Assembly: GCF_000412675.1 (NCBI RefSeq)
Contig: NC_021505.1
Location: 2,908,501 to 2,972,500, forward strand
Length of the DNA stretch: 64,000 nucleotides
From: Pseudomonas putida NBRC 14164
Lineage (GTDB): Bacteria; Pseudomonadota; Gammaproteobacteria; Pseudomonadales; Pseudomonadaceae
Direction: 5' to 3'
Numbering within the stretch: position 1 is the stretch's first letter; the number at the start of each line of letters is the position of its first letter. Positions 29,500 to 39,297 of this stretch are shown one piece after another. The translations under genes and the position numbers were made by a program. Under the pieces are notes generated by a model that was not told the DNA's origin, did no database searches, and worked only from the letters and a program-made list of their open reading frames with translations.

Positions 29500-30360
29500 A
29501 TGCCGTTCCAGAAAGGGCTGCTTGCCACCCCGGTGCCGGCCCATGCCCGTCACCTGTTTTTCACCCTGCAATCGCCCGAGGCGCTGCCCGCCGCTCTGGA
29601 TGCCTTGCTGCCACAGGTCGATGGCGACCAGCTGATCCTGGGTGTCGGTGCACCGCTGGCCAAGGCCCTGGGCCGAGCCGTGCCTGGCCTGCGAGCTTTC
29701 CCCCTGCTGGACGCCGCCGTGGAGAACCCCAGCACCCAGCACGCGCTGTGGCTGTGGCTGCGCGGTAACGAGCGCGGCGATCTGCTACTGCGCGCCCAGG
29801 CCCTGGAGCACGCGCTGGCACCAGCCCTGCGCCTGACGGACAGCGTTGACGGCTTCCTGCACCGTGGCGGCCATGACCTGACCGGCTATGAAGACGGCAC
29901 CGAAAACCCGGTGGACGAAGACGCTGTGCAGGCGGCCATTGCTGCCGACGGCTCCAGCTTTGCGGCGTTTCAGCTGTGGAAGCACGACCTGGAGTACTTC
30001 AAGTCGCTGCCCCAGGCTGACCAGGACAACATCATCGGCCGCCGCCTGAGCGACAACGAAGAGCTGGACGATGCGCCCGAGTCTGCGCACGTCAAACGCA
30101 CCGCTCAGGAAAGCTTTGAGCCCGAAGCATTCATGGTCCGTCGCTCGGTGGCCTGGGCAGACCAGCGTGGCGCCGGCCTTGCCTTCGTTGCCCTGGGCCA
30201 CAGCTTCGATGCATTTGAAGTACAGCTGCGGCGCATGAGCGGCCTGGAGGATGGCATCATCGACGGCCTGTACCGCTTCAGTCGGCCACTGACCGGTGGC
30301 TATTACTGGTGCCCGCCGATGGGCGAGACGGGTGTTGACCTGAGCCTGCTGCTGGCCTGA
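29500..30360 (+). CDS. DyP-type haem peroxidase (class B)
   Basis: 286 residues, the compact B-type length, without a signal peptide. The GxxDG motif is G129-Y-E-D132-G, giving the catalytic Asp. The proximal haem His is H197 and the distal Arg is R214 or R215. DyP enzymes oxidise dyes, phenols and lignin-related compounds with hydrogen peroxide, and B-types are often loaded into encapsulin shells. No encapsulin gene lies nearby. An aldo/keto reductase follows after 89 bp, possibly in the same transcript. Confidence 0.95.
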   Translation: MPFQKGLLATPVPAHARHLFFTLQSPEALPAALDALLPQVDGDQLILGVGAPLAKALGRAVPGLRAFPLLDAAVENPSTQHALWLWLRGNERGDLLLRAQALEHALAPALRLTDSVDGFLHRGGHDLTGYEDGTENPVDEDAVQAAIAADGSSFAAFQLWKHDLEYFKSLPQADQDNIIGRRLSDNEELDDAPESAHVKRTAQESFEPEAFMVRRSVAWADQRGAGLAFVALGHSFDAFEVQLRRMSGLEDGIIDGLYRFSRPLTGGYYWCPPMGETGVDLSLLLA

Positions 30361-30449
30361 TCACTAAACATCCAGATACAGAAACACCTGCCGGCACGGG
30401 ATAGTGCGGCTAGCATTGAAAGTTTCCGATTCATGACGGGAGCTTTTCC

Positions 30450-31361
30450 ATGTACGCACGTCGTGATGTCCTACGCGCGGGTGCCACGCTGGGGGTGCTG
30501 GCCGCCGTCAGCCCCTGGCTGCACGCCGCCACCCCGGCGGGTTTGCTGACCCGCAAAGTACCGTCCACCGGTGAGGCGTTACCCGTGATCGGTGCCGGCA
30601 CTTCCGGCAGTTTTGAGGTACAAGCCGACTCGGCCCAATATCAGCAGCTCAAAGCGGTGCTCAAGGCATTTTTCGAAGGGGGCGGCCGGGTGATCGACAC
30701 CTCGCCCAACTACGGCGGTGCCGACAGCATCCTGGGGCAGTTGCTGGAAGAGGGCGGCTGGCACAGGCAGTGCTTCATTGCCACCAAAATCGCCGCCGAC
30801 AGCCGTGCCGACGCCGAAGCGCAATGGGCCGGCAGCCTGAAGAGCCTGCGCACCGACAAGGTCGACTTGCTGCAGATCCATAACTTGCGTGACTGGCAGA
30901 CCCAACTGCCCTATGCCCGCGAGCTGAAGCGGCAGGGCAAGACCCGCTATGTCGGCATAACCCATTACCTGAACAGCGGGCAAGACGAAGTCGCCCGTAT
31001 CGTGCGCAGCGAGCCGCTGGACTTCATCCAGATCAACTATTCGGTCAATGCCCCCGACGCTGCCCGCGAACTGCTGCCGCTGTGCCAGGACAAGGGCGTT
31101 GCGGTGCTCATAAACCGGGCTTTCGACGATGGCCGCCTGTTCGCCAAGGTCAAGGACCTGGCGTTACCCGGCTGGGCTGCTGAGGCAGGCATTGGCAGCT
31201 GGGCGCAGCTGTTTCTCAAGTTCGCCATCAGCCACCCGGCAGTGACCACGGTAATCCCCGCCACCGGCCGGCCCGATCGCCAGCTCGACCAGCTCAAGGC
31301 CGGACAAGCACCCATGCTCACCCAGGCGCAGCAACAGGCGCTGATCAAGCAGTTTGCCTGA
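30450..31361 (+). CDS. Tat-exported aldo/keto reductase
   Basis: 303 residues. The N-terminus (YARRDVLRAG then a hydrophobic stretch ending LHAATPA) is a twin-arginine signal, so the protein is probably periplasmic and exported folded. The catalytic tetrad of aldo/keto reductases is complete: D83, Y88, K113 and H144. The family uses NADPH to reduce carbonyls. An exported member would have no obvious NADPH supply, which makes this localisation odd. The next gene, a transporter, starts 4 bp after the stop. Confidence 0.9.
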   Translation: MYARRDVLRAGATLGVLAAVSPWLHAATPAGLLTRKVPSTGEALPVIGAGTSGSFEVQADSAQYQQLKAVLKAFFEGGGRVIDTSPNYGGADSILGQLLEEGGWHRQCFIATKIAADSRADAEAQWAGSLKSLRTDKVDLLQIHNLRDWQTQLPYARELKRQGKTRYVGITHYLNSGQDEVARIVRSEPLDFIQINYSVNAPDAARELLPLCQDKGVAVLINRAFDDGRLFAKVKDLALPGWAAEAGIGSWAQLFLKFAISHPAVTTVIPATGRPDRQLDQLKAGQAPMLTQAQQQALIKQFA

Positions 31362-31365
31362 TATC

Positions 31366-32649
31366 ATGCATGGCTGGCGGCGGCGCCTGGACCAAGGGCT
31401 GAACATTCAGCCCGGCGAGGGGCCAGCAGTAATCGCCGGCCTGTTGCTGTTCTACCTGCTGTTCACCGGCTACTTCATGCTGCGCCCGGTGCGAGAAACC
31501 ATGGGCGTCGCCGGTGGAGTAGACAACCTGCAATGGCTATTCACCGGCACCTTCATCGCCACACTGGCCTGCATGCCGCTGTTTGGCTGGCTGGCGGCAA
31601 AGGTGCAGCGCAGGTATATCCTGCCTTGGACCTACGGTTTCTTTGCCAGCAACCTGTTGCTGTTCGCGGCGCTGTTTGCCGGCAACCCGGACGATCTCTG
31701 GACCGCCAGAGCCTTCTACATCTGGCTATCGGTTTTCAACCTGCTGACCATTTCTCTGGCCTGGAGCGTGCTCGCCGACCTGTTTTCCACTGCGCAGGGC
31801 AAGCGCCTGTTCGGCCTGCTGGCCGCCGGGGCCAGCCTGGGCGGGCTCAGTGGCCCAATCGTTGGCACCTTGCTGGTGGCCCCGCTGGGCCATTCCGGGC
31901 TGCTGGTGCTGGCAGCAGTGTTTCTGCTGGGCAGTATCGGTGCCGCGCTGTTCCTGCAACGCTGGCGACTGCGCCACCCACTACCAGAACAGGCCGAGCG
32001 GGCTGGCTCGCGGCCCTTGGGTGGCAACCCGTTTGCCGGCGCTACCGCCGTGTTGCGCTCCCCGTATCTGCTGGGCATCGCCCTGTTCGTGGTGTTGCTG
32101 GCCAGTGTCAGCACCTTCCTGTATTTCGAGCAGGCGCGCATCGTCAGTGAAACCTTCACCGATCGCACCCGGCAAACCCAGGTCTTCGGCCTGATCGATA
32201 CGGTGGTGCAGGCCTTGGCCATCCTCACTCAGGTATTCCTCACCGGGCGCCTGGCCCGGCGCTTGGGTGTGGGGGTGTTGCTGGTGGCAGTGCCGCTGGT
32301 AATGGCTGCGGGTTTCCTGTGGCTGGCACTGGCCCCGGTGTTCGCGGTGTTCGTCGTGGTGATGGTGGTGCGCCGGGCCGGCGAGTACGCGTTGGTGCGG
32401 CCAGGGCGGGAGATGCTGTTCACCGTGCTGCCCGCCGAGGACAAGTACAAGGCCAAGAACTTCATCGACACGGTGGTCTACCGAGGCGGCGATGCCCTCA
32501 GCGGCTGGGTCAAGCGTGCGCTGGACGTAATGGGTGAGCACCCGCAACTGGCGATGCTGATCGGCGCCGTGATTGCCTTGGGCTGGGCTGCAACCGGTAG
32601 CTGGCTGGGCCGCCGCCAGGCCCATCTGGATAACCCGCCGCACGACTGA
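31366..32649 (+). CDS. MFS-like transporter (resembling NTP/NDP exchangers)
   Basis: 427 residues with about 12 membrane segments, starting at ATG 31366. The segment FTGYFMLRPVRETMGVAGG and the later LVRPGREMLFTVLPAEDKYKAKNFIDTVVYRGGD match proteins annotated as ATP/ADP-carrier-like or MFS transporters of Proteobacteria. The substrate is unknown. The 4-bp spacing to the Tat-type aldo/keto reductase suggests shared transcription. Confidence 0.8.
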   Translation: MHGWRRRLDQGLNIQPGEGPAVIAGLLLFYLLFTGYFMLRPVRETMGVAGGVDNLQWLFTGTFIATLACMPLFGWLAAKVQRRYILPWTYGFFASNLLLFAALFAGNPDDLWTARAFYIWLSVFNLLTISLAWSVLADLFSTAQGKRLFGLLAAGASLGGLSGPIVGTLLVAPLGHSGLLVLAAVFLLGSIGAALFLQRWRLRHPLPEQAERAGSRPLGGNPFAGATAVLRSPYLLGIALFVVLLASVSTFLYFEQARIVSETFTDRTRQTQVFGLIDTVVQALAILTQVFLTGRLARRLGVGVLLVAVPLVMAAGFLWLALAPVFAVFVVVMVVRRAGEYALVRPGREMLFTVLPAEDKYKAKNFIDTVVYRGGDALSGWVKRALDVMGEHPQLAMLIGAVIALGWAATGSWLGRRQAHLDNPPHD

Positions 32650-32796: not shown

Positions 32797-32973
32797 ATGG
32801 CCACTAAAGACAACAGCCGTACCGGCAACCAACAAGGCAGCCAAGGCGGTAACAAGAACCCAGGCAACTTCGCCAACGATCGTGACAAGGCTTCCGAAGC
32901 CGGACGCAAGGGCGGCCAGTCCTCTGGCAAGGACATGCCGCACGAGTCGGGCCGCAAGGGCGGCCGCTCGTAA
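32797..32973 (+). CDS. KGG-repeat stress-induced protein (YciG-like)
   Basis: 58 residues, very hydrophilic. It has the pattern NPGNFANDRDKASEAGRKGGQ, then SGRKGGRS, i.e. KGG repeats of the Gsi/YciG family found in stress-induced and LEA-like bacterial proteins. Probably disordered. The 147-bp upstream region should hold the promoter. It opens the run of six same-strand genes ending at 37291; the lipoprotein follows after 60 bp. A paralogue lies at 39085-39297. Confidence 0.9.
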   Translation: MATKDNSRTGNQQGSQGGNKNPGNFANDRDKASEAGRKGGQSSGKDMPHESGRKGGRS

Positions 32974-33033
32974 TTGACCGACGCGCAGTGCCGGGGCGAC
33001 CTGGCACTGCAATCAGCCAAAGGGGGAATACCC

Positions 33034-33231
33034 ATGCGACTGACTCCACTGATCATCCTCATGGGCTCGCTGACCTTGGTCGGCGGCTGCTTTGACCGCG
33101 ACAATGACCACCCGGGCAAGGATGCCGACCCCAGCAAGCCATCACTGCAGATGCAGCAACCCGATACCAAGCCGGCACCGCAGCCTGCGCCCGACCCGGA
33201 ACCGATGCCGGGGCAGAAACCGAGCCAATAG
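33034..33231 (+). CDS. Small Pro-rich lipoprotein
   Basis: 65 residues. A lipoprotein signal ends in LTLVGGC with lipidated Cys at 19. The mature part is short, charged and rich in Pro, Asp and Gln (PDTKPAPQPAPDPEPMPG), so it is probably a flexible envelope tether. GGGG precedes the ATG. It is 18 bp before the di-iron protein gene. Function unknown. Confidence 0.8.
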   Translation: MRLTPLIILMGSLTLVGGCFDRDNDHPGKDADPSKPSLQMQQPDTKPAPQPAPDPEPMPGQKPSQ

Positions 33232-33249
33232 GCCCACAAGGAGCACGGC

Positions 33250-34581
33250 ATGAGGGTGATGAACCGCGACACCGCTCCAATTTTGCCCATGGCCGCCGAG
33301 CGGTCCAGCGTGCAACAGCGCTATCAGGCAATGCTGACAGGCCACTATGACGGCAGCGCCGCATGGCTCGACGAACAACTTTCACGTGCTGCACGCCTGC
33401 CGGATGACCTGCCTGACTCACCTTCGAATTTGCCAGCCTGGAGCGCGAGGTGCGCTGGTGATGTAGCCGCCGGCTACGCCGAGTACCTTGAGCAACGCCG
33501 GCAAGGCGCACCACGCCGCTTCTTTGCCTGCCGCGCACATGCGCTGTGGTTTCTGCAACAGGTTGCACCGACCAAGGCGGTGGATGGAGCCTGGCTGCAC
33601 GGCACGCTGCAGCACTGGGGCGACCCACGTTTTCACGGTCTGATCCGGACTTACCTGGAAGAGCTCGGCAATGGTGACCCGCGTTGCAATCATGTGCTGA
33701 TCTACCAGCGTCTGCTGGGTCGCCTAGGGTGTGTAGAGGCGATGCCACTGGACGATGCACGGTATCTCCAAGGTAGCCTGCAGCTGGCCCTGGGGCAGCA
33801 TTGCGACACGCACCTGCCTGAGGTCATTGGCTATAACCTCGGCTATGAACAACCACCGCTGCACCTGCTGATCACCACTTACGAGCTGGCAGAGCTCGGC
33901 ATCGACGGCCACTACTTCCAGTTGCATGTGACGATCGACAATGCCGCCAGCGGCCACGCTCAGCTATCGCTTCAGGCCCTGCGCCAGCTCAGCCCCCAGC
34001 ACGACCAGCAAGCGTTCTACGACAGGGTGCGCAACGGTTATCGCCTGAACGAGCTGGGTACTGCGGCAGCTGACCTGATCCGCCAGTTCAACCTGCAGGG
34101 TGAACTGTTCGCAGCCCTGGAACGCAAGCGTATTTACGGCCAGTTCATGCATGCCGACCGCTGCCGCCTGCAGCAGCGCACTATCAATCAGTGGTTGGCC
34201 ACACCTGGCGCCATGCCCGAGTTCGTTGCCGCGTTGCAGGCCCAAGGCTGGATTGTGCGGGGCCAGGACCCGGCCCACAGCCGCTGGTGGAAGCTGATCG
34301 AAGGGCCTGCGGCGGTTATGTTCGGTGTGTTCAACAGTTACGAGAAACAACTGTGGCACGACTGGATAGCCGACACCTGGCGCCCTACGATCCGCCGTGT
34401 CGCGCCCGGTAGCTGGGGCCTGCCCGAATACCCGGGGGAATCACAAGCCGAAATGCCCAGTGAAGCACCCGCCGCGTTGATAGGGCAAATGGCCGGCAAC
34501 CGCCATGCCACACCTGAGGGCCTGGCGGCGACCCGGGCATACATTCGCACCACCGGGCTGCTTCAGGAGGAACCCCGCTGA
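33250..34581 (+). CDS. Haem-oxygenase-like di-iron oxygenase (iron-containing redox enzyme family)
   Basis: 443 residues, all helical. Candidate iron ligands follow the HDO pattern: E138 in YLEELGNGDP, H148, E200 or E212, and H226-VTI-D230-NAASG-H236. HDO members such as UndA, BesC and SznF perform unusual oxidative chemistry (decarboxylation, C-C cleavage, N-oxygenation). The C-terminal ~100 residues are an extra segment of unknown role. AAGGAG lies 6 bp ahead of the ATG. The gene overlaps the methyltransferase start by 1 bp, so the two are coupled. It is probably the oxidative step of an undescribed pathway. Confidence 0.82.
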   Translation: MRVMNRDTAPILPMAAERSSVQQRYQAMLTGHYDGSAAWLDEQLSRAARLPDDLPDSPSNLPAWSARCAGDVAAGYAEYLEQRRQGAPRRFFACRAHALWFLQQVAPTKAVDGAWLHGTLQHWGDPRFHGLIRTYLEELGNGDPRCNHVLIYQRLLGRLGCVEAMPLDDARYLQGSLQLALGQHCDTHLPEVIGYNLGYEQPPLHLLITTYELAELGIDGHYFQLHVTIDNAASGHAQLSLQALRQLSPQHDQQAFYDRVRNGYRLNELGTAAADLIRQFNLQGELFAALERKRIYGQFMHADRCRLQQRTINQWLATPGAMPEFVAALQAQGWIVRGQDPAHSRWWKLIEGPAAVMFGVFNSYEKQLWHDWIADTWRPTIRRVAPGSWGLPEYPGESQAEMPSEAPAALIGQMAGNRHATPEGLAATRAYIRTTGLLQEEPR

Positions 34582-35534
34582 TGATGCTTGATGCCAGACA
34601 AGTCGAGGCCGACCAGGCGTTGCTGCAACTGGGCCAGCGGTTACGCGCCGACGGCTACCGATTTACCTGCGTGACACCCGCGACCCACAGCCGCGTCAAT
34701 GCCCGCGAGGGTTCCGGACAGGCCAGCAGCTTGCGCGACGTGTTCGGCTGGAGCCGACCTTTCGCCCCAGGCTTGTTATCAAATGATGAACTTCAGTTGC
34801 TCGAACGCGCGCAGGTGCTGGCCCCCAGGGGCGAACTGTTGGGCAGTTCGGTGCGCTGGTCCAGCCTGGAAGACCTGCTGCTGGTGCATTCAGCGTTCCC
34901 CACCGAGGCCAGCGATGCGGTGTTCTTCGGCCCGGACAGCTACCGCTTTGCCCAGGTCATCCACCAGCACCTGCAGCACAACCCCATGCCGGTCGAGCAT
35001 GCAGTCGATATCGGCTGCGGCAGCGGGGTGGGTGCGTTGCTGATCGCTCGCGCCGCCCGGCATGCGCAGGTCAGCGCCGTGGACATCAACCCCTTGGCGT
35101 TGCGCTACGCCACGATCAACGCGGCGCTGGCGGGGGTGGGTAATGTGTCGATAGCGTCCAGCGACCTGCTGGACGGCATCACCGGTACGTTCGACCTGAT
35201 TGTCGCCAACCCGCCTTACATGCTCGACCGCAGCGCCCGCACCTATCGCCACGGCGGTGGTGCGCTGGGCGCTGAACTGTCGCTGCGCATCGTTGAGCAG
35301 GCATGCGAACGCCTGACCCGCCATGGCACCTTGCTGCTATACACCGGCGTGGCCATTGTCGATGGCCGCGACGCCTTGCTCGAAGCTGTCCGCTTGCGCC
35401 TGGCAGGGCCGCAATGGGCCTGGGTATACCGCGAGATCGACCCTGACGTGTTTGGCGAGCAACTGGCCGAACCGGGCTATGAGCAGGTCGAACGCATCGC
35501 CGCCGTGGCGCTCACGGTAACCCGTCATCGCTGA
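34581..35534 (+). CDS. SAM-dependent methyltransferase with NPPY motif
   Basis: 317 residues. The SAM-binding loop is VDIGCGSGVGALLIA (142-156), the ribose-binding Asp is in AVDINPLAL (near 168), and the catalytic N210-P-P-Y213 marks enzymes that methylate planar nitrogens such as amide or base amino groups. The N-terminal ~130 residues form a separate helical domain. An AGGAGG site precedes the start (TGATG overlap with the upstream stop). With the ligase 6 bp downstream, N-methylation of an amide or amine product is a reasonable guess. Confidence 0.88.
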   Translation: MMLDARQVEADQALLQLGQRLRADGYRFTCVTPATHSRVNAREGSGQASSLRDVFGWSRPFAPGLLSNDELQLLERAQVLAPRGELLGSSVRWSSLEDLLLVHSAFPTEASDAVFFGPDSYRFAQVIHQHLQHNPMPVEHAVDIGCGSGVGALLIARAARHAQVSAVDINPLALRYATINAALAGVGNVSIASSDLLDGITGTFDLIVANPPYMLDRSARTYRHGGGALGAELSLRIVEQACERLTRHGTLLLYTGVAIVDGRDALLEAVRLRLAGPQWAWVYREIDPDVFGEQLAEPGYEQVERIAAVALTVTRHR

Positions 35535-35540
35535 GGCAAC

Positions 35541-36647
35541 ATGGCCCGGGCCTGCACATTTGGCATCGAGGAGGAATACCTGCTGGTGAGGCTGGACTCA
35601 GGGCAGGTCCCTGCAACACCGTCACCTGCGGTAATAGGGCGTTGTCGCGAAGCGTTGGGCCAATATTTTGCCCAGGAAATGTTCCGCAGCCAGATCGAGC
35701 TGGCCTCGCCGGTGTTCAACAACCTTCATGAAGCACGTGAGTTCTTCCAGCACAGGCGGCAGCGTTTGAGCGTGGCGCTGGCCGAGGAGGGGATGGGACT
35801 GTACGGTGCGGCCAGTCACCCCAGTGCCGCCTGGCTGCGGCAGAAGGCTGCAGCCCCGGCACATTATCAGCAACTGTTCGATGACTACCGGCATGTGGCC
35901 CGGCGAAGCCTGCTCAACGGCTTGCATGTGCACGTTGGGGTTCCTCCAGGTTGTGACCGCATGCAACTGATCAACCGCGTGTTGGTCTGGCTGCCGTTGT
36001 TGCTGGTACTGAGCACCTCGTCGCCCTTTTGGGCTGGCCAGCGTACCGGCTACATGAGCTACCGCCGAGTGATTTGCGGGGAGTGGCCGCATATGGGCTT
36101 GCCCGAAGCCTTGCCGGACTGGGCCGCCTATGAACGCTACCGGGCCTTTTTGCAGCGAACCGGTGCCTTGGCTGCGGATGGCGACTTCTGGTGGGCCATT
36201 CGGCCTTCGCGGCGCTTCCCTACGGTGGAGTTGCGTATCTGCGATGGCTGCCCGCAACTGGAAGATGCCCTCTGCATCGCCGCGCTGTTTCGCCATTTGG
36301 TGGAGCACGCCATTACTGGTCGCCATGACCTGTTGCCCAGCAACCGCGAACTGCGCTGGATCGCCCAGGAGAACTATTGGCGCGCCATGCGCTATGGGCG
36401 CCATGCACAATTCATTGGTATGCACGAGCAACAGCCAGTCACGGCCGAAGGCTGGCTTGGCCAGTTGCAAGAGCAGGTGCCGGTCGACAGCGTGGATGCC
36501 GAGCGTGCCTGCCAGCATGCCCGGCACCTGCTGCGCGACGGCACCCATGCCGACCAGCAGTTGCACCGCCTGGCACAGGCCATCGAGGGCGGGCTCGACA
36601 AGGCACAGGCGCTGCAGGCCGTGGTGGCGGCCGGGACTTGCAATTAG
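35541..36647 (+). CDS. Carboxylate-amine ligase, GCS2/YbdK type
   Basis: 368 residues, close to the 372 of E. coli YbdK. The ATP/substrate motif FGIEEEYLLVRL (7-18) is typical of the GCS2 family, followed by LLNGLHVHVG and FPTVELRICD. YbdK has weak gamma-glutamylcysteine ligase activity in vitro, and relatives join other carboxylates to amines. It lies 6 bp after the methyltransferase gene. Its likely job is to make an amide or gamma-peptide bond in the same pathway; the two substrates are unknown. Confidence 0.92.
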   Translation: MARACTFGIEEEYLLVRLDSGQVPATPSPAVIGRCREALGQYFAQEMFRSQIELASPVFNNLHEAREFFQHRRQRLSVALAEEGMGLYGAASHPSAAWLRQKAAAPAHYQQLFDDYRHVARRSLLNGLHVHVGVPPGCDRMQLINRVLVWLPLLLVLSTSSPFWAGQRTGYMSYRRVICGEWPHMGLPEALPDWAAYERYRAFLQRTGALAADGDFWWAIRPSRRFPTVELRICDGCPQLEDALCIAALFRHLVEHAITGRHDLLPSNRELRWIAQENYWRAMRYGRHAQFIGMHEQQPVTAEGWLGQLQEQVPVDSVDAERACQHARHLLRDGTHADQQLHRLAQAIEGGLDKAQALQAVVAAGTCN

Positions 36648-36703
36648 CCGGGGTTGGCCGACAATGGCCGCGCCCCTTGCAGCCACGCGGAAACACCTGC
36701 TCC

Positions 36704-37291
36704 ATGATGCTGATCAAGCAATTCCCCGACATTTCCCTGGATGACACGCTGTTCGTATTCGCCCTCGAGGCCGAGGCTGGCGATGTTTTCACAGAGGTGA
36801 ACACCGTGTTCACCGGCATTGGCAAAGTCAATGCGGCGATCGCACTGACCAAGGCAATTGCAACCCGCAGGCCCAGACTTATCGTCAACCTTGGCTCGGC
36901 GGGCAGCCAGCGCCATGGCAAGGGCCAGGTGGTGTGCTGTAACCGTTTCGTACAACGCGACATGGACGTGACACCGCTGGGCTTTGCCCGTTACGAAACG
37001 CCCTTGTCGGGTGTCCCGGTAGTCCTGGAACATGGCGCAGCAATCCCCGGCCTGCCGCTGGAAACCTGTGGCAGCGGTGACAGCTTCGAAATCAACCATG
37101 GCGAGGCGCCTTATGACGTGGTCGACATGGAAGCCTATGTGCTGGCGTTGATCGCACGCGGCGAAGGCATTCCGTTTGTGTGCCTGAAATACATATCCGA
37201 TGATGCCGGCAGCGATGCCGCAGGGGACTGGGCCGTGCAGGTGCACCTGGCGGCCGAGGCATTCAAGCGGGTGCTGTTCAGCCAGGTTTGA
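36704..37291 (+). CDS. MTA/SAH nucleosidase-like protein (PNP/UDP phosphorylase family)
   Basis: 195 residues, shorter than the ~230 of MTAN. Key residues are kept: E22 or E24 in ALEAEAG, E143 in VVDMEAY and D166 or D167 in ISDDAGSD. MTAN enzymes split S-adenosylhomocysteine or methylthioadenosine. Start ATG 36704 follows CACCTGCTCC with only a weak ribosome-binding site; ATG 36707 is the alternative. It is 56 bp after the ligase, last in the six-gene run, and could remove the SAH made by the methyltransferase. Confidence 0.85.
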   Translation: MMLIKQFPDISLDDTLFVFALEAEAGDVFTEVNTVFTGIGKVNAAIALTKAIATRRPRLIVNLGSAGSQRHGKGQVVCCNRFVQRDMDVTPLGFARYETPLSGVPVVLEHGAAIPGLPLETCGSGDSFEINHGEAPYDVVDMEAYVLALIARGEGIPFVCLKYISDDAGSDAAGDWAVQVHLAAEAFKRVLFSQV

Positions 37292-37804: not shown

Positions 37805-38356
37805 ATGGCCAGACATATCATTCATTTCACCGGGCCGATCAATTCGTCGACCTGTGGCAACCTGATCAACACCTGCTCGCGGGCGTTGCAACAGGGCGCC
37901 GGGATCCTGCAGTTGAACATCGCCACCATGGGCGGCGAATGCAGTTACGGGTTTACCCTGTACAACTTCTTGCGGGCATTGCCGGTAGCGGTGCATACCC
38001 ACAACCTGGGCACGGTGGAATCCATGGGTAATATCCTGTTCCTGGCGGGGGAGCGGCGCACGGCGTGCAGCTTCAGCAAGTTCCTGTTCCATCCGTTTCA
38101 CTGGACCTTGCATGGTTCGGTTGACCATGCGCGGATGGCCGAATATGCAATGAGCCTCGATTACGATCTGGAGTTGTATGCGCAGATCGTTGCCGAACGG
38201 ACCGAGGGTGCGGCGCAGGTGCTGGATGTGCCGCGATACCTGATGGCCCACCCGCGGATTCTGAGCCCACGCGAGGCCCTGGAGAACGGGATGATCCATT
38301 CCGTGGACGAGATGCCGATCGAGCCGGAGTCAGTTCAGTGGAGTGTGCATGCCTAG
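37805..38356 (+). CDS. ClpP-like serine protease domain protein (orphan)
   Basis: 183 residues with the ClpP/crotonase-like fold. The sequence GTVESMGNILFLAGERRTA contains the probable nucleophile S73, and H96 (LFHPFHW) is the probable base. Their spacing of 23 resembles 25 in ClpP. It is not the main ClpP, which sits beside clpX in pseudomonads; no ATPase or chaperone is next to it. It may cleave small peptides or work with another AAA+ partner. GGAGGAAAGC precedes the start. Confidence 0.82.
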   Translation: MARHIIHFTGPINSSTCGNLINTCSRALQQGAGILQLNIATMGGECSYGFTLYNFLRALPVAVHTHNLGTVESMGNILFLAGERRTACSFSKFLFHPFHWTLHGSVDHARMAEYAMSLDYDLELYAQIVAERTEGAAQVLDVPRYLMAHPRILSPREALENGMIHSVDEMPIEPESVQWSVHA

Positions 38357-39084: not shown

Positions 39085-39297
39085 ATGGCGCAGGACCAAG
39101 AGCGAACAAGCCGGCGCGGCGGCACCAAGGAAACCAACCCGGGCAACTTTGCCAACGACCGGGAACGGGCTTCGCGCGCGGGTCACAAGGGCGGGCAGGC
39201 TTCTGGCGGCAACTTCGCCAACGACCGCCAGCGGGCTTCGGAAGCGGGGCGCAAAGGTGGTCAGAATAGCCACGGCAGCGGTCGCAGTCAGCAGTGA
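39085..39297 (+). CDS. Second KGG-repeat stress protein
   Basis: 70 residues, paralogue of the protein at 32797-32973. Two tandem copies of GNFANDRxRAS-AG-KGGQ are visible (about 20-40 and 42-61). Hydrophilic and probably disordered. AAGGAG precedes the ATG. It is monocistronic, with a 259-bp upstream region that should carry a stress-responsive promoter (none identified with confidence). Confidence 0.9.
   Translation: MAQDQERTSRRGGTKETNPGNFANDRERASRAGHKGGQASGGNFANDRQRASEAGRKGGQNSHGSGRSQQ

Follow-up and report, generated by a model that had tools for sequence, protein, structure and literature searches.

Within a 64,000-nucleotide stretch of the Pseudomonas putida NBRC 14164 genome (contig NC_021505.1, positions 2,908,501 to 2,972,500; called the window here, and taken from a genome that is a single contig of 6.16 Mb) lies an operon of six genes, all on the + strand, built around a heme-oxygenase-like dimetal oxidase (HDO) and a class I methyltransferase (MT). 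A gene for a KGG-repeat stress protein (32797..32973; PF10685, E 4.2e-10) is followed by one for a small putative lipoprotein (33034..33231), and then come the genes for a DtpC-type HDO of 443 amino acids (33250..34581; PF14518, E 2.6e-26), for the MT, an NPPY enzyme of 317 amino acids with its own N-terminal domain (34581..35534; PF05175, E 2.1e-17), for a YbdK-type carboxylate-amine ligase of 368 amino acids, GCS2 (35541..36647; PF04107, E 1e-65), and for an MTAN-like nucleosidase of 195 amino acids (36704..37291; PF01048, E 4.2e-17). The KGG and lipoprotein genes are optional, and so is the MTAN-like gene, an extra of close relatives. The HDO and MT prove to be the core of this set, and we lean towards a reading in which they form a stress module that is often joined by a lineage-specific amino-acid ligase and makes a protective small molecule by N-oxygenating and N-methylating an arginine-type substrate.

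The six same-strand genes and the gaps between them (60, 18, −1, 6 and 56 bp) are exactly those of the original prediction, made from the DNA letters alone, when checked against the open reading frames (ORFs), and its family calls were confirmed by Pfam and NCBIfam, the lipoprotein excepted, which drew no match in a Pfam scan and is recognised by eye from an LVGGC lipobox. At the −1 bp junction of HDO and MT the stop and start overlap in TGATG.

The HDO and MT genes as a core pair

Each protein was searched for in 149 genomes of the genus, the window genome included. The HDO was found in 94, in 92 of them at E < 1e-100 and in two (G079 and G083) at only about 1e-11; the MT was found at E <= 1e-30 in 92, and the two sets are identical, being the same 92 genomes of the 149. 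GCS2 occurs at E <= 1e-20 in 45 genomes, all of them within the 92 and none among the 57 others (hypergeometric 1.3e-12, relatedness ignored), and lies within 4 kb of the MT in 37 and elsewhere in the genome in 8. With HDO and MT sharing one set of genomes and GCS2 confined to it, the core is therefore the HDO-MT pair and GCS2 a dependent partner, the MTAN-like, KGG and lipoprotein genes being additions in close relatives.

Among 40 HDO loci chosen from the 92 genomes, most with 17 kb of sequence, the MT follows the HDO on the same strand in all 40, GCS2 is present in 19 (16 downstream, 3 divergent upstream), the MTAN-like gene in 9 and all four enzymes in 7. The best 80 named loci of 588 confirmed relatives, a set that overlaps partly with the genomes of the 40 loci, have an MT adjoining the HDO in 75 cases (three of them in opposite orientation), GCS2 in 22 (15 downstream, 7 divergent) and MTAN in 5; only 4 of these loci carry the complete set of four enzymes, and lipoprotein homologues stand upstream of the HDO in close relatives in 15 of the 80. 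A third set comprised 120 HDO loci, each with up to 17 kb of sequence, with codon-based gene calling and a clustering that placed the HDO itself in 118 of them; here the KGG cluster occurs in 18. Across 108 same-strand pairs the gap between HDO and MT has a median of 2 bp, and 51 of the pairs overlap. In trees of 22 GCS2 and 38 HDO rows, divergent and downstream GCS2 fall into separate clades, and rows lacking GCS2 are nested among those with it downstream. On such counts (9/40 and 5/80 loci for MTAN) the MTAN-like, KGG and lipoprotein genes are not the core parts that the original prediction took them for. The named HDOs closest to that of the window are from Pseudomonas sp. 10-1B, P. capeferrum and P. 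inefficax.

Outside the genus, 398 Pseudomonadota genomes held the HDO (E < 1e-100) in 17 cases, the MT (E <= 1e-40) in 18 and both in 15. Among them the MT occurs without a window-type HDO in G297, G403 and G437, the last of which has a short HDO adjoining its MT. Eight genomes have an HDO with no adjoining MT (loci L125, L128, L136, L154, L156, L084, L085 and L088), and in 5 of the 8 an MT lies elsewhere in the genome. L125, L136, L154 and L156 look like HDO loci without partners, but a search for cyanophycin synthetase (CphA) found matches there. In Novosphingobium sp. ES2-1 the MT and a short HDO are on separate plasmids. No GCS2 of the close type turned up far from Pseudomonas, the one case in another genus of its family being L083, where it is divergent from the HDO. 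In G297 the gene adjoining the MT was considered as a short HDO and rejected, since it is YqcI/YcgG; an EgtD-like histidine methyltransferase (PF10017) adjoins the MT and YqcI/YcgG there (L207:5517-8393), with no HDO beside, and this is possibly another amino-acid N-methylation set.

Fold and ligands of the HDO

The HDO domain occupies residues of about 100-266 and is followed by an extra C-terminal region at about 300-443. An AlphaFold2 model built on 50 sequences (mean predicted local distance difference test score, pLDDT, 89) superposes on RohS, and this together with PF14518 indicates the seven-helix heme-oxygenase fold. The top VIA-align matches are RohS (Z 19.0; 250 residues, root mean square deviation (rmsd) 4.1), HrmI (18.2) and SznF (17.4), and the next are FlcD (14.1), CADD (13.6), BesC (12.3), UndA (11.3), PolF (10.9) and AetD (9.6), with HamA, TenA-like and unassigned entries interspersed; N-oxygenases fill the nine best Foldseek rows and the eleven best VIA rows, and the two orders agree. 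The best fold matches stop near residue 295, and so the C-terminal region is hardly covered. What HrmI, RohS and SznF share with the window HDO is a fold that includes the N-terminal part (Z 17-19), whereas a search of PDB sequences brought up none of them as a match over the whole length, and the C-terminal region appears to be another one. SznF ends in a cupin, and no cupin match to the window HDO was found in Pfam up to E 10. In a profile search of PDB sequences the only match was local and weak, to the RohS entry 9pfw (E 0.25 and 0.93), and so it is the fold search from which the N-oxygenase likeness comes. HrmI and SznF act on basic or arginine-derived substrates, judging by papers and PDB titles.

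Residues E138, H148, E212, E215, H226, D230 and H236 do not vary in any of 50 sequences, nor do E191 and E200, and several carboxylates are candidate metal ligands. RohS, too, we take to have a basic or arginine-derived substrate. By sequence the protein carries the ligand set E-H-E-H-(D/E)-H, the motif given for HDOs in the accessible text of one study (PMC11363339) and listed as a 3H/3C ligand set in that of a 2026 review (PMC13108848). Loss of the iron ligands would have counted against the original prediction, and the conserved residues indicate that they are kept. On its model the HDO is thus predicted to be a dimetal enzyme of the N-oxygenase structural type, a shared fold not being equal to a shared activity.

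Residues of about 300-380 (window 34147-34389) give a weak MarR-like match (E 0.036), and this region is missing from the short HDOs. One genome (G504) has a second copy of the same HDO family (L093:1375-2853) without equivalents of E138, H148 and H236, which looks like a pseudoenzyme; that genome also carries an intact HDO and MT.

The window HDO and DtpC of Acinetobacter baumannii

DtpC is described, in the accessible text of the paper that reports it, as an HDO-fold protein whose gene is co-transcribed with katE, 54 bp apart; dtpC or katE alone suffices for survival of drying, the double mutant is impaired, and each of the substitutions E143A, H153A and H232A abolishes the protection by DtpC (PMC13232832). 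The same text has DtpC keeping H2O2 low in dried cells, an iron chelator benefiting dtpC mutants, and Stutzerimonas and Pseudomonas giving the best BLAST matches outside Acinetobacter; it presents DtpC in 2026 (June) as the first HDO tied to survival on drying, and leaves three options for its mechanism, namely iron binding, scavenging and the synthesis of a protective small molecule (PMC13232832). The word methyltransferase does not occur in the main text of that paper.

An A. baumannii record of 3.97 Mb has an HDO that is 42% identical to that of the window across window residues 63-374 (35% when the whole alignment is counted), and 54 bp after it begins an ORF of 714 amino acids, taken by eye for KatE. 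DtpC E143, H153 and H232 align with E138, H148 and H226 of the window HDO in a count made by hand from the methionine at ORF position 10. Because of the 54-bp gap to the next gene and of these three residues being in register, the A. baumannii ORF is taken to be DtpC. Homology runs along the full length and all three of the mutated residues are present, and the window HDO is by its sequence assigned to the DtpC family. The two proteins are alike in family, in the tested residues and in their stress-gene setting; they differ in that the operon partner of DtpC is katE, with no MT of the window family found and no ligase known, and what was assayed of DtpC is survival of drying, peroxide and mutation rate rather than its chemistry. 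The records used include L227 (NZ_CP064203.1) and two more from A. baumannii of 3.7-4.1 Mb, which are filed as plasmids and are evidently chromosomes.

MT, ligase and nucleosidase

The MT model (mean pLDDT 94) finds its nearest folds, over nearly the whole length, in AerE and GenN (E 2e-17 to 4e-16, TM 0.6-0.7, with a large rmsd of 5-8), and PrmC comes next. AerE is the aeronamide and GenN the gentamicin N-methyltransferase, and NPPY at MT residues 210-213 is invariant in 42 of 42 sequences; because of these nearest folds and the invariant motif, the model favours an enzyme that would N-methylate a peptide or small molecule. A comparable logic is found in streptozotocin biosynthesis, in which, according to the accessible texts, SznE puts a methyl group on arginine before SznF N-hydroxylates the product (PMC11705231, PMC13108848). 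There too a nitrogen methyltransferase adjoins an HDO N-oxygenase, and the pair acts on arginine; the window set differs in its ligase partner and its stress setting, and the likeness meant here is one of logic.

GCS2 scores above the NCBIfam cut-offs for YbdK (TIGR02050, 378 against 176 bits; NF010039, 466 against 371 bits), has the solved relatives YbdK 1r8g and 1tt4, and is a clear member of the YbdK/GCS2 carboxylate-amine ligases, from which it differs in being tied to HDO and MT. The MTAN-like protein does not reach the curated cut-off of any of the nucleosidase models listed, its best scores being 95.6 against 129 (NF004168) and 67.8 against 152.2 (TIGR01705); a profile of 10 sequences matches the MTA/SAH nucleosidase 4pr3 (E 1.6e-21), and the VDME and SDDA motifs are kept. 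Among PADLOC models HDO, GCS2 and MTAN found no match, and the MT matched mad2 (E 1.2e-20) and three further methyltransferase models, in no case beyond the methyltransferase domain and its edge.

Arginine and cyanophycin genes beside HDO and MT

Cyanophycin is a polymer of Asp and Arg, and in several taxa the genes of its metabolism (CphA, the cyanophycinase CphB and the isoaspartyl peptidase IaaA) adjoin an HDO or an MT. One family (f23) has the DtpC-type HDO in 41 of 145 genomes, and among 30 of its loci with 1.5 kb flanks a CphA, CphB or IaaA gene is present in 16 and the MT in 9, one locus reading IaaA-HDO-MT-CphB. The CphA N-domain (PF18921) lies within 5 kb of the HDO in 16 of the 41 genomes, which represent 3 of 15 genera and differ slightly from the 16 of the flank set, and since all of these 16 genomes contain additional CphA copies at distances above 20 kb, the HDO-linked CphA is an extra paralogue. 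With three CphA places assumed in 5.5 Mb, a gene placed at random would have one nearby with a probability of about 0.6% per genome, which gives the proximity a binomial probability of 4e-25, relatedness ignored, and of about 0.006 when counted by genus. In the genus g65 (G438, G781, G818, G875, G888, G841 and G901) the N-domain of the CphA paralogue starts 150-210 bp from the HDO match, and further CphA copies lie elsewhere in these genomes. All four Massilia/Oxalobacteraceae loci within the best-80 named set read HDO then CphA, and could come from the genus group that holds the f23 cases.

More distant bacteria add to this picture with a short HDO. A row of genes in Sphingobium yanoikuyae (Alphaproteobacteria) reads CphA-IaaA-CphB-MT-short HDO, and the short HDO in this row resembles HrmI at the sequence level (E 4.3e-29). 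In G437, from another class of the phylum than the window, CphB-CphA is divergent from short HDO-MT; in its order the MT occurs in 12 of 200 genomes, with a short HDO within 1.5 kb in 9 of the 12 and a cyanophycin gene in 3. A Legionella sainthelensi plasmid (L237:3061-4890) encodes a 609-residue fusion of an arginine deiminase/DDAH-like domain with the MT, followed on its 3' side by a short HDO of the HrmI-like type, a hypothetical gene, LigD and Ku. The first domain of this fusion is nearest in the PDB to Sll1336 (E 6e-15) and Alr4995 (5e-12) and then to DDAH, and the first two we take to be the cyanobacterial arginine dihydrolases ArgZ and AgrE. Cyanophycin metabolism thus adjoins HDO or MT in some Burkholderiales-type genera, in Sphingobium and in G437, in contrast to the Pseudomonas loci scanned, where its genes were not found. 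The accessible text of a 2023 survey of cyanophycin genes (PMC10206079) contains neither 'oxygenase' nor 'redox', and its methyltransferase passage concerns an isoaspartyl O-methyltransferase.

Stress setting and flanking genes

Clusters recurring in the 120 HDO loci, each named from a profile scan of one representative, are LigD, Ku, DUF4142, a short-chain dehydrogenase, Mn-catalase, hemerythrin, CinA, PIG-L and KGG, and at least one of six such stress clusters is present in 69 of the 120. Neighbour genes of this kind are typical members of general stress regulons. The HDO of A. johnsonii has catalase, DUF421 and trehalose-6-phosphate synthase genes nearby. The original prediction had tied the operon to stress through the KGG protein and lipoprotein, and the tie itself is borne out by the stress genes around the HDO and by its place in the DtpC family.

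Directly 5' of the KGG gene in the window is an MFS transporter gene, and its cluster occurs in 14 of the 120 loci. The region 29500-32649 holds a DyP-type peroxidase and an aldo-keto reductase (both recognised by eye) and the MFS gene, with synteny kept in close relatives, and downstream of the operon are a stand-alone ClpP-like protease (37805-38356) and a second KGG protein with two repeats (39085-39297). ClpP-like genes are near the HDO in a few relatives too (L044, L048, L066, L159 and L165). The P. putida KT2440 tags PP_3250-PP_3254 we take to be likely homologues of the operon, and a literature search on them gave nothing relevant, nor did one on YbdK-type ligases in Pseudomonas.

A proposed protective small molecule and its alternatives

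The original prediction had four enzymes jointly building a small N-methylated, oxidised amide or peptide. Of this the HDO, MT and ligase stand as a unit (the same 92 genomes, with GCS2 inside them in 45 of 45), the MTAN-like protein and, with it, the KGG protein and lipoprotein drop out of the core, and an oxidised, N-methylated amide or peptide stays the best guess for the product. What it did not foresee is the published role of the HDO family through DtpC, and the relatives that point to arginine and cyanophycin. The substrate, as we infer it, is probably arginine. The ligase slot would be filled by GCS2 in Pseudomonas, by an extra CphA paralogue in some Burkholderiales-type genera, and by cyanophycin genes in a few other Proteobacteria. 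The ligase would activate a carboxylate with ATP and join it to a basic amino acid in an amide or isopeptide; the MT, from its fold and NPPY motif, would methylate an amide, amine or guanidine nitrogen; and the HDO, from its fold, ligands and neighbours, would use O2 to N-hydroxylate a nitrogen of an arginine- or ornithine-type side chain. The product would then be an N-hydroxylated, often N-methylated derivative of arginine, ornithine or an Asp-Arg- or Glu-Arg-type dipeptide, the order of steps, the exact nitrogen and the product all being what we infer, and would serve as a small intracellular protectant when cells are dried, starved or under oxidative stress. If it is N-hydroxylated, it could bind iron or remove peroxide, and this would fit the DtpC phenotype because dried cells with DtpC have less H2O2 and a chelator helps the mutant.

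A number of observations weigh against the HDO-MT module as a maker of such an arginine-type protectant. The E-values of the Foldseek matches are weak (best 8.5e-3), and the last HDO ligands are spaced H-x3-D-x5-H, with the final His six residues after the Asp where it is three in FlcD, a spacing that is said to vary in the accessible text of PMC11363339. The four enzymes of the original prediction do come apart in the neighbourhood survey: 2 of the 9 MTAN loci in the 40-locus set are without GCS2, GCS2 is absent from 47 of the 92 HDO-MT genomes of Pseudomonas, and no Acinetobacter record of the plasmid collection, those with a DtpC-type HDO and three chromosome-sized ones of A. baumannii included, gave an MT match at E 1e-25, the 22 MT-positive records there all belonging to other genera. 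Since DtpC works in A. baumannii, the MT then seems not to be needed always. HDO without MT is found in G341, G352 and G543 (the first two among the 398 Pseudomonadota), and in 14 genomes reached via other loci, mostly of other genera, GCS2 had only distant relatives, in 7 of the 14 and at about 154 bits or less. A promoter scan of the window, for sigma-70-type sites only, found no sigma-70-like promoter.

The arginine lead is similarly uneven. No CphA lies within 5 kb of the HDO in 25 of the 41 f23 genomes (some contigs being short), and CphA is common in that family anyway, in 36 of 41 genomes with the HDO against 10 of 20 without (the first 20 listed; Fisher 0.003). Komagataeibacter has MT-HDO without cyanophycin genes; three other MT-bearing Sphingobium plasmids have the MT beside an amino-acid symporter with no HDO, and four further Sphingomonadaceae plasmids with a short HDO have no MT adjoining it. 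A search for CphA, CphB and IaaA at E 1e-8 found none in 112 Pseudomonas and Stutzerimonas loci of up to 17 kb, whole Pseudomonas genomes not having been searched for CphA, and arginine is thus carried over to the window from other taxa.

One alternative is that the HDO protects by itself, through iron sequestration or slow destruction of peroxide and without any metabolite, the MT and ligase being some other co-inherited stress function. Sequestration and the scavenging of reactive oxygen are both kept as options in the accessible text on DtpC (PMC13232832), HDO genes lie near catalase, Ku and LigD, and Acinetobacter records with a DtpC-type HDO gave no MT match; however, independent stress genes would not be expected to occupy the same 92 of 149 genomes with GCS2 solely inside them, and the N-oxygenase fold, like the short HrmI-like HDO adjoining the same MT family elsewhere, points to chemistry, and so we regard this account as unlikely while giving it real weight. 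Joint modification of a macromolecule (protein, tRNA or rRNA), with one residue for example methylated and hydroxylated and the ligase separate, would suit the resemblance of the MT domain to PrmC and RsmC, the MarR-like stretch of the extra C-terminal region and the modification of a ribosomal peptide by an HDO that the accessible text of the 2026 review cites (PMC13108848). Against it, the near-whole-length MT folds are nearest to enzymes acting on a peptide (AerE) and an aminoglycoside (GenN), characterised HDOs mostly act on fatty or amino acids in that same text (PMC13108848), and elsewhere the genes are accompanied by those of amino-acid ligases and dipeptide enzymes, which makes a macromolecular target improbable.

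An ordinary secreted natural product (an antibiotic, toxin-like compound or signal), for which the wording of the original prediction leaves room, might be suspected from the upstream MFS gene and from the Pseudomonas HDO clusters that accessible portions of the literature associate with fluopsin C, azomycin and mangotoxin. The MFS gene is nonetheless infrequent across the loci, no carrier-protein or non-ribosomal peptide synthetase gene was among nine window proteins scanned, the spread of HDO-MT through 92 of 149 congeners is judged broad for an accessory cluster, and the setting is one of stress; such a cluster seems to us hardly probable. The gathering of many unrelated stress genes around the HDO could also mean that the neighbourhood is a stress-gene hot spot and its associations without function, but GCS2 tracks HDO-MT even where unlinked (8/45) and an MT was mostly present elsewhere in genomes whose HDO has none adjoining, and so this is very improbable indeed.

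Implications

Taken singly, the components are familiar: DtpC, N-oxygenases of the HDO type, N-methyltransferases and GCS2 ligases. The open-licence papers searched held no description of the HDO-MT pair, of its tie to GCS2 or of that to cyanophycin, nor any combination of a carboxylate-amine ligase, an iron-containing redox enzyme and a methyltransferase, and the combination, undescribed there, carries a possible answer to the DtpC mechanism. In its most specific form the proposal is of a new class of stress metabolite: a DtpC-type HDO, a methyltransferase and an exchangeable ligase (either GCS2 or the additional CphA) would together yield an arginine-containing (iso)peptide, N-hydroxylated and often N-methylated, that shields dried or starved cells by holding iron or quenching peroxide; in this form it is a tentative suggestion, and rather doubtful.

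The comparative evidence favours the small-molecule option among the three left open by the DtpC authors, and it names partner enzymes for a DtpC-type HDO together with a substrate class that can be tested. Were it true, an arginine (iso)peptide of this kind would explain how DtpC works, 92 of 149 sampled Pseudomonas genomes would carry the genes for this stress metabolite, and some cyanophycin-type genes would have an unexpected second role.

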